NCBI GenBank assembly: GCA_903970515.1
Contig: CAJCJA010000034.1
Span: forward strand, 1-64,000
DNA from: Candidatus Saccharibacteria bacterium CG_4_10_14_0_2_um_filter_52_9
Lineage (GTDB): Bacteria > Actinomycetota > Acidimicrobiia > Acidimicrobiales > RAAP-2
Reading direction: 5' to 3'
DNA: 64,000 nt
The first letter of the stretch is position 1, and the number at the start of each line of letters is the position of its first letter. Below the pieces are notes generated by a model. That model saw nothing but the letters and a program-made list of their open reading frames with translations. It was not told the DNA's origin and ran no database searches. Positions 54,942-58,567 of the stretch are shown here, piece after piece. A program made the position numbers and the translations under genes.

Positions 54942-56579
<1,638 letters not shown>

Positions 56580-56873
56580 CTACTTCGAAATCGTGGCGAG
56601 CACGTCACGGCCGGAGAGGATCAACAGGTCCTCGCCGTCGACGGTAATCTCCGTGCCGCCGTACTTCGAGTAGACGACGGTGTCGCCCACGCTCACGCCG
56701 GTGGGAATCACTTCGCCGGTGCTCTCGGCGCGACGCCCGGGACCCGTCGCCAGGACTTCACCCTGCTGGGGCTTCTCCTTCGCGGTGTCGGGGATGACGA
56801 GACCTGAGGCGGTCGTCGCTTCGGCGCTGTCGGGACGGACCACAATGCGGTCTTCTAGTGGGTGTAACTTCAT
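56580..56873 (-). CDS. groES: 10-kDa co-chaperonin GroES
   Basis: A 97-aa cap subunit. The N-terminal [15 protein letters not shown] and the mobile loop [18 protein letters not shown] that contacts GroEL are intact, with the [14 protein letters not shown] core after them. A strong AGGAGG lies 8 nt before ATG 56873. The promoter and two CIRCE operators lie in the 81-bp gap to pdxH, so HrcA repression and heat-shock induction are expected. Confidence 0.98.
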
Positions 56874-56894
56874 TTTTTGTTGCCTCCTGTGCGA

Positions 56895-56921
56895 TTAGCA
56901 CTCGAAACCTGTGACTGCCAA
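56895..56921. promoter_or_regulatory. CIRCE operator 1 (proximal to groES)
   Basis: TTAGCACTC-N9-GACTGCCAA: one arm is a perfect CIRCE arm and the other has 7 of 9 matches to GAGTGCTAA, with the exact 9-bp spacer. HrcA should bind here. It begins 21 bp upstream of the groES ATG. Confidence 0.88.
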
Positions 56922-56949
56922 TTTAGCAGCCTCAGGCGCCGAGTGCCAA
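56920..56949 (-). promoter_or_regulatory. Candidate groES promoter overlapping both CIRCE elements
   Basis: On the minus strand TTGGCA (56949-56944) is a five-of-six -35 box, followed after 18 bp by TAAATT (56925-56920), a four-of-six -10 box. The start site would fall inside CIRCE 1, a layout that suits repression by HrcA. Confidence 0.55.
56923..56949. promoter_or_regulatory. CIRCE operator 2 (distal, tandem)
   Basis: TTAGCAGCC-N9-GAGTGCCAA: 7 of 9 and 8 of 9 matches to the CIRCE arms with a 9-bp spacer. It starts 1 bp after CIRCE 1 and ends 5 bp before the pdxH stop codon. Both arms are imperfect, so binding may be weaker. Confidence 0.65.
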
Positions 56950-56954
56950 CGCGA

Positions 56955-57566
56955 TTATGGCGCATGGCGCTCGCGCACCCAGGTCGAGCCCACGAGCCGG
57001 TAGAACACCCGGTCGTGGAGACGGTCCTCGCGGTGCTGCCAGAATTCGAAGAAATTTGGCGTCAAGCGAAACCCTCCCCAATAGGGAGGTCGGGGCACGT
57101 CGCGACCCTCGTAGCGCAGCTCCTCGTCGTGCATCGCCGTCTCCAGGTACTGGCGGCTCTCGAGGAACGCGCTCTGGTGGCTCGCGTGCGCGCCCAATTG
57201 GTGGCCTCGGGGTCGCGCCGAGAAGTACTCGTCGGACTCCTCGGCGCTCATGTGTTCGACGCTTCCCTCGATACGGATCTGGCGCCCGAGACCTTCGCAG
57301 TACCACAAGAGGGCGGCGTAGGGATTCTGTTCCAACTCCACGCCCTTGCGCGATTCGTAGTTCGAATACCATCCGAAGGAAGTCGCGTCGACGTGGCGCA
57401 GCAGCACCATGCGCGCGCTCGGTTTGGCGTCACTCGATGCCGTGACGAGCGCGATCGCTTCGCGGTCGCGCATCACCTCGCTCGCGTCGTGGAACCACGC
57501 GTGGAACTGCACGAAGGGACTCGGGTCACAATCCTTCGCGTCGAGTGGAATCCAACGCTCACTCAC
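56955..57566 (-). CDS. pdxH: Pyridoxamine 5'-phosphate oxidase
   Basis: A 203-aa FMN enzyme from GTG 57566, which overlaps the tsaD stop as GTGA; a longer frame reads into tsaD. SARMVLLRHVDATSFGWYSN holds the FMN site, and the C-terminal WGGFRL and HDRVFYRL are typical of PdxH. It makes pyridoxal phosphate, the cofactor of Alr encoded in the same chain. It is the last gene of the nine-gene series. Confidence 0.94.
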   Translation of the reverse strand: MSERWIPLDAKDCDPSPFVQFHAWFHDASEVMRDREAIALVTASSDAKPSARMVLLRHVDATSFGWYSNYESRKGVELEQNPYAALLWYCEGLGRQIRIEGSVEHMSAEESDEYFSARPRGHQLGAHASHQSAFLESRQYLETAMHDEELRYEGRDVPRPPYWGGFRLTPNFFEFWQHREDRLHDRVFYRLVGSTWVRERHAP

Positions 57567-58567
57567 GCGACGTCGACCAGTTGCCAGTTCGCACGTGCGC
57601 TGAGCGACAGCGCGCTCGCGCCGTCGTGGGCGAAGCGATACAGCCCGGCGGCGCCGATCATGGCGGCGTTGTCCGTGCACATCGACAATGACGGCAAGTG
57701 CGACACGACGCCGAACTCGTCGGCGAGGGAGCGCACGAGGACGCGAAGGTGCGAGTTCGCGGCGACTCCTCCGGCGAGGGCGACGCCCTTCACGTCGTAG
57801 CGCTCGAGCGCGCGTCGAAGTTTGCGCAGTAACTGCTCGCCGACGGCCGATTGGAAGGATGCGGCGACGTCACCAATCGCGACGTCGGGGTTCTTTTGGG
57901 TCGCGCGCACGACCGCTGTCTTGAGACCCGAGAAGGAGAAGTCGAAGTCGTCACCGATCATCGAGACCGGCAACGCCAGCGCGCCGGGGTTACCGCCTTG
58001 GGCGAGTCGGTCGATCTCGGGTCCGCCGGGATAACCCAGTCCGAGCCAGCGAGCGACCTTGTCGTAGGCCTCGCCCGCCGCGTCGTCAATGGTCTCGCCG
58101 AGAACCTCGTGTTGACCGAGTCCCTCTTGCAGGACGATCAGACTGTGGCCCCCCGAGACGAGCAACGTGAGCAGCGGCCACTCGAGGTCTCGTTGTTCGA
58201 GCAACGGGGCAAAGAGATGCCCCTCGAGGTGATTGACCCCGACGAAGGGGACGCCCCACGCGAGGGCGTAGGTCTTGGCGGCCGAGAGCCCCACGAGCAA
58301 CGAGCCAATCAATCCCGGTCCACTCGTCACCGCCACCGCGTCAATGGCCGGGTTCGTCGGATCGAGCCCGGCTTGGAGCAGCGCCTCGCGCACGACCGGT
58401 CCGATGGTCGTGATGTGGGCGCGTCCGGCGAGCTCGGGCACGACGCCGCCGAAAGCCCGGTGCTGGTCAATGGAGGATTCGATGACCGAGGAGTGCACGT
58501 GCAGCGTGTCGTCGACGACGGCCGCCGCCGTCTCATCACAACTCGTCTCGATGCCAAGTACCTTCAC
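57563..58567 (-). CDS. tsaD: tRNA t6A synthesis protein TsaD
   Basis: A 334-aa Kae1/TsaD ATPase from GTG 58567 (GTGA overlap with rimI); the longer frame is antisense-free but reads back through rimI. KVLGIETSCDET opens the protein, the metal site is NHLEGH with His113 and His117, and GGVVPELAGRAH is the N-terminal family motif. With TsaB and TsaE, encoded upstream, it attaches threonylcarbamoyl to A37 of ANN-decoding tRNAs. TsaC (Sua5) is not in the window. Confidence 0.97.
   Translation of the reverse strand: MKVLGIETSCDETAAAVVDDTLHVHSSVIESSIDQHRAFGGVVPELAGRAHITTIGPVVREALLQAGLDPTNPAIDAVAVTSGPGLIGSLLVGLSAAKTYALAWGVPFVGVNHLEGHLFAPLLEQRDLEWPLLTLLVSGGHSLIVLQEGLGQHEVLGETIDDAAGEAYDKVARWLGLGYPGGPEIDRLAQGGNPGALALPVSMIGDDFDFSFSGLKTAVVRATQKNPDVAIGDVAASFQSAVGEQLLRKLRRALERYDVKGVALAGGVAANSHLRVLVRSLADEFGVVSHLPSLSMCTDNAAMIGAAGLYRFAHDGASALSLSARANWQLVDVA

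Follow-up and report, generated by a model that had tools for sequence, protein, structure and literature searches.

The groES-groEL locus and its two CIRCE elements

The window, by which we mean the whole 64 kb stretch of DNA that was analyzed, carries a groES-groEL pair on its minus strand, with pdxH as the upstream neighbour (Table 1). pdxH is the last member of a nine-gene same-strand chain, glmS-acpS-alr-UDG-tsaE-tsaB-rimI-tsaD-pdxH, a reading consistent with the annotation; the chain genes were assigned by Pfam, except glmS, which was identified from its ORF translation alone.

Table 1. Features of the groES-groEL locus (positions in the window; arms are written on the coding strand)
Feature	Positions	Strand	Basis and description
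groEL	54942..56573	(-)	Pfam Cpn60_TCP1, E 5e-76
groES	56580..56873	(-)	Pfam Cpn10, E 4e-30
Ribosome-binding site	56883..56888	(-)	AGGAGG; from sequence, conserved in the genus alignment
Proximal CIRCE	56895..56921	(-)	TTGGCAGTC-N9-GAGTGCTAA; 2 mismatches
Predicted -10	56920..56925	(-)	TAAATT; consensus match, preceded by TG (56927-56928)
Distal CIRCE	56923..56949	(-)	TTGGCACTC-N9-GGCTGCTAA; 3 mismatches
Predicted -35	56944..56949	(-)	TTGGCA; identical with bases 1-6 of the distal CIRCE upstream arm
pdxH	56955..57566	(-)	Pfam PNPOx_N and PNP_phzG_C; GTG start from sequence

A scan of the window with the CIRCE pattern TTAGCACTC-N9-GAGTGCTAA, allowing up to 3 mismatches of 18, returned these two elements and no others. 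Dinucleotide shuffles (n = 100) yielded a mean of 0.01 matches and none yielded two, which excludes chance as the origin of the pair. In the direction of transcription the arrangement reads TTGGCACTC-N9-GGCTGCTAA-A-TTGGCAGTC-N9-GAGTGCTAA. The first-pass annotation had described tandem CIRCE operators before groES-groEL, and the pattern scan and Pfam assignments confirm this in its details: the proximal arms TTAGCACTC and GACTGCCAA match at 9/9 and 7/9 positions, the distal arms TTAGCAGCC and GAGTGCCAA at 7/9 and 8/9, both spacers are 9 bp, a single base (56922) separates the two elements, and the distal CIRCE ends five bases (56950-56954) from the pdxH stop codon. Both sites thus combine the arm pattern and exact spacer of a CIRCE with a position before groESL, a cognate HrcA in the same genome and conservation in relatives (see below).

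The -35 and -10 hexamers were derived from consensus prediction. TTGGCA-N18-TAAATT (minus strand, 56949-56920) is the sole sigma-70-like match in positions 56500-57600, with a score of 9/12 plus the upstream TG (shuffles, mean 0.1). The TAA of the -10 ends the downstream arm of the distal CIRCE and its last two T open the proximal one, so that the predicted promoter overlaps the proximal CIRCE by two bases only (56920-56921). Since -35 and -10 both start inside distal arms, promoter and distal CIRCE cover nearly the same stretch. The promoter had been described as lying across both CIRCEs; its presence is upheld and its placement is corrected, as it lies almost wholly within the distal element. 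The distal CIRCE is therefore superimposed on the predicted core promoter, and the proximal CIRCE sits just 3' of the -10, where transcription is expected to start.

HrcA and other CIRCEs in the genome

HrcA is encoded by one copy in the genome (PF01628, E 8.1e-40). The only PDB entry matching it by sequence is 1stz, and no HrcA-DNA complex was found there by the same search. Single CIRCEs also precede hrcA and groEL2. In a genome-wide scan that accepted R/Y at arm position 3, the sites with at most 2 mismatches were those of hrcA (0), groES proximal (1), groEL2 (1) and groES distal (2), while a reversed control pattern gave two matches per strand at up to 3 mismatches. A fifth CIRCE-like site (C36:100029, 3 mismatches) lies inside an ORF that we take, from its translation, to encode a potassium-transporting ATPase subunit; given this location and the matches of the reversed control, we dismissed it as a chance match.

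The groES proximal and groEL2 (G000:C35:4816-4842) CIRCEs each pair one canonical arm with one that has G for C at arm position 7 (TTRGCAGTC), changes that the hrcA CIRCE does not share. The position-7 G of the groES CIRCE is kept in most of the genus. The groESL CIRCE of S. thermophilus, as given in PMC3192767, has the same change plus one more, and 7/9 arms are thus not disqualifying.

Conservation within the genus

The genus set comprised 37 groES upstreams from 36 genomes; G001, G014, G018 and G167, also of the genus, gave no usable groES. Two further genomes, G046 and G060 (partial or weak groES matches), were left out of the comparison. The proximal CIRCE is present in 37/37 loci. Conservation of the distal CIRCE had been proposed as a check on the pair, and the element, called at a distance of exactly 28 bp with at least 13/18 arm matches, is kept in 34 of the 37. 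It is absent from L037 and L038 (genomes of ~1.5 Mb), and in L064 the left arm is off by one base; all three genomes encode HrcA. The distal CIRCE of L028 is a marginal case, with arm matches of 6/9 and 7/9.

Mean information in the genus alignment is 1.89 and 1.85 bits for the near-invariant proximal arms, and 1.45 (left) and 1.52 bits (right) for the distal arms, compared with 0.36 bits for the distal spacer and 0.23 bits for the 30 bp upstream flank. Its retention in 34/37 loci, and arms that are conserved where spacer and flank are not, show that the distal CIRCE is no mere remnant. The CTC just after the -35 hexamer (kept in 32/37) and the C at the third base of the distal right arm (36/37) both lie outside the sigma-70 hexamers. 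No genus locus has a perfect distal downstream arm, most of them carrying GGC or GTC for GAG, and the affinity of the site may accordingly be low.

It had also been suggested that read-through from the nine-gene chain would pass through both sites. Only 10/32 genus loci have PdxH within 233 nt of groES; the tandem is thus not tied to an upstream pdxH, and pdxH read-through was rejected as the cause of the two sites.

Tandem CIRCEs outside the genus

The order sample consisted of 146 groES upstreams from outside the genus, 300 nt each (duplicate loci L157, L167 and L174, as well as G077, G151 and unlisted rows, were omitted). One CIRCE was found in 103 of these, two in 37 and none in 6, whereas shuffled upstreams averaged 0.014 sites. 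Of 57 families outside the genus, 17 have tandems, at distances of 23/24 (6 loci), 28/29 (7), 41-43 (14), 48/49 (9) and 52 bp (1), with no tandem distance above 52 bp within the 300 nt. When each of 15 families with upstream classes, including that of the window, was represented by one distance, 32/105 pairs fell within 1 bp of each other; uniform nulls gave 9.1 pairs (27-60 bp, p ~1e-5) and 11.8 pairs (27-52 bp, p ~2e-4), p-values that are only indicative because the families share ancestry and some values, in families with several, were chosen by hand (f3, 42; f7, 49).

The 28-bp layout recurs in a genome from another order of the class (G238, L322), with an identical GGCTGCTAA arm, and the sister genus within the family of the window (G061, L177) has a single CIRCE. 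The layout in G238 is either convergent or an old one that was lost elsewhere.

In the 23/24-bp class (L183, L187, L200, L222 (family f52), L201 and L268) adjacent arms share 3-4 bases and the additional CIRCE lies downstream of the main one; promoter overlap does not explain these six loci. Additional CIRCE pairs were seen away from the examined groES loci, possibly at groEL2, at G045:C79:18446/18485 and G043:C77:39253/39292 (39 bp each), G046:C223:2643/2684 (41 bp), G040:C111:53050/53099 (49 bp) and G038:C1:767735/767785 (50 bp).

A phylum sample of 65 further groES loci, with same-order and remaining rows left out, contained one CIRCE in 43, two in 19, three in 1 and none in 2. Ilumatobacter nonamiensis YM16-303 has a tandem at 48 bp and Nocardioides ferulae one at 35 bp. 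By the phylum counts, tandem CIRCEs are common in Actinomycetota and the pair in the window is not unusual in kind.

Register of the second CIRCE to the predicted -35

In coordinates counted from the CIRCE, 92 of 101 single-CIRCE promoters have a TANNNT that begins at -5; the TTG of the -35 begins at -28 in 60 promoters and one base further upstream, at -29, in 24. In the tandems, the -35 falls within the distal CIRCE, at offset 14 for 13/14 members of the 41-43-bp class and at offset 20 for 9/9 members of the 48/49-bp class, so that in these two large upstream classes combined the distal CIRCE is locked to the -35 in 22/23. Exceptions are L209 (41 bp, offset 13) and L273 (52 bp, offset 24). 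The right arm of the 48/49-bp class is mostly GGTTGCYAA, a CIRCE arm with two bases altered that contains TTGCYA. The 28-bp class of the window adds another register, the left arm here being the -35 itself (an offset of 0, by construction).

When the -35 shifts from -28 to -29, the CIRCE-CIRCE distance becomes 43 instead of 42 bp, or 49 instead of 48 bp. Because the distance tracks the shift, the distal CIRCE keeps step with the -35, not with its sister operator. A fixed register to the -35 and -10, such as an operator overlapping a promoter should have, is thus found, while neither a constant distance nor a constant helical phase is found across relatives; within the genus itself the distance is constant at 28 bp. 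This lock to the -35 at shifting CIRCE-CIRCE distances favours promoter occlusion over a fixed HrcA-HrcA contact.

A family in which HrcA was not found

Five of the six CIRCE-less groES upstreams in the order sample are those of all five sampled genomes of one family, f26 (L236, L239, L240, L245 and L246, in G169, G107, G062, G193 and G141). HrcA was not found in any of these five genomes (completeness 85-94%) and was found in all seven other genomes searched. The f26 upstreams contain promoter-like sequence (e.g., TTGGAAA and TATCGT, read by eye), and no CIRCE arms were found in them, the best half-site matching at most 6/9 positions. Judged by gene content and upstream sequence, f26 is a natural loss of the regulon. 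The sixth CIRCE-less locus (G050) is in a genome with HrcA; a CIRCE lies ~1.7 kb upstream, and groES seems, by eye, to stand behind groEL.

Proposed control of groES-groEL

Taken together, the data make it quite probable that the region is a two-operator HrcA control region whose outer CIRCE is built from the promoter itself. Two-site control by HrcA is likely, given that both CIRCEs lie before groES-groEL, that the distal one is conserved and that it overlaps the promoter. From these sequence comparisons we infer HrcA binding at the outer site, use of the predicted promoter and the order of release. The upstream arm of the outer site, TTGGCACTC, would hold the -35, and the downstream arm, GGCTGCTAA, followed by ATT, would hold the extended -10, so that an HrcA dimer bound there would directly exclude the sigma factor from both hexamers. 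As in most relatives, the inner CIRCE spans the expected start and the beginning of the leader, and HrcA bound there would prevent open-complex formation or promoter escape. Once GroEL is engaged by unfolded proteins, HrcA activity would be lost and both sites would clear, in line with the GroEL titration model proposed for HrcA (as outlined in PMC1676014). In L. lactis, a one-base change in a CIRCE arm raised groESL expression more than two-fold (reported in PMC4585701); by extension, and speculatively, the imperfect distal arm may make the outer site the weaker one and the first to be released.

The first-pass annotation saw in the back-to-back sites a sign of cooperative or graded control. 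In a cooperative pair, two HrcA dimers would touch on abutting operators and give steeper or tighter regulation. The exact 1-bp separation in 34/37 genus loci and the recurrence of tandems in 17/57 other families speak for such a pair. The fixed 28 bp within the genus is, however, equally explained by fixed promoter geometry, and distances of 28, 42 and 48 bp correspond to ~2.7, 4.0 and 4.6 helical turns, which place the sites on different faces of the helix. Since several helical phases occur, conservation does not extend to a fixed HrcA-HrcA contact; in relatives the CIRCE-CIRCE distance varies with the -35 while the register of CIRCE to -35 stays. As a general account, cooperation between touching dimers is therefore not borne out and we consider it unlikely, although cooperativity in this one promoter is possible. 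A second operator registered to the promoter appears, on the comparative sequence data, to be the better supported reading.

A different objection is that the distal "CIRCE" is a mere promoter that happens to resemble the arms (TTGGCA is close to TTAGCA, and TGCTAA to an extended -10) and is not used by HrcA. Both distal arms do share bases with the hexamers, two positions of the downstream arm are mismatched, and the TTGCCA-type -35s of single-CIRCE promoters resemble half an arm. This reading leaves unexplained the conserved CTC and right-arm C outside the hexamers, as well as the arm outside the -35 in the 42/43- and 48/49-bp classes, which matches at 7-9 of 9 positions; the f26 genomes, without detectable HrcA, keep promoter-like hexamers and no arms. 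We judge it improbable. Still less credit is due to the idea that the inner arms (CTGCTAA-A-TTGGCAG) form one palindrome for another regulator: this 15-bp stretch is among the most constant of the genus alignment, but it arises by itself from head-to-tail inverted repeats and is absent from single-CIRCE relatives. It is equally hard to credit that CIRCE acts here in the mRNA leader, on stability, instead of as a DNA operator. PMC3207917 cites such a role for B. subtilis and R. capsulatus; the distal site, however, is upstream of the predicted start, and the minimum-energy leader fold lacks a CIRCE hairpin (z -1.33), so that a role for an RNA hairpin was rejected as unsupported by the leader fold.

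With a second operator registered to the promoter as the preferred reading, we lean, with some reserve, towards a wider proposal: that second HrcA operators arose repeatedly in Acidimicrobiales, and probably in the wider Actinomycetota, through promoter hexamers of groES becoming CIRCE half-sites, or vice versa, in a few registers (offsets 0, 14 and 20), with sigma-factor geometry, and not repressor contact, setting the distance. Registration of the second site to the promoter would offer a simple rule for why tandem CIRCEs show few distances. The order also supplies natural comparisons, with one-site relatives, two-site relatives in differing registers, and a family in which neither HrcA nor CIRCE arms were found and which retains promoter-like sequence.

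Comparison with known HrcA/CIRCE systems

Tandem CIRCEs may already have been described in Streptomyces or mycobacteria. Our literature search found no paper combining CIRCE, HrcA and Acidimicrobi-, and found no promoter-registered second CIRCE in titles or the beginnings of abstracts, a search that most subscription papers fell outside.

The locus shares with class I groESL operators of the HrcA/CIRCE type the 9-9-9 inverted repeat, the groES-groEL order, a single HrcA with its own CIRCE and a proximal site by the start; it differs in adding a second CIRCE that coincides with the -35 and extended -10. The closest parallel by description is the dnaK operon of Lactococcus lactis, where two CIRCEs overlap the promoter (PMC1676014); both cases place two CIRCEs on one promoter, in a different operon and phylum. 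The hrcA operon of Lactobacillus plantarum likewise has two predicted CIRCEs in tandem (according to PMC3842655), in this case at hrcA and together with a CtsR site. Among the other Actinomycetota, groES loci with at least two CIRCEs (20/65) resemble the window in that their second CIRCE sits a short way upstream and often covers the likely promoter, and differ in spacing, with several (46-47 bp) having the likely -35 in the distal spacer. As tandem CIRCEs are known in Lactococcus and Lactobacillus, the pair described here is a variant, not new in kind, and it refines a well-known system without constituting a new one.
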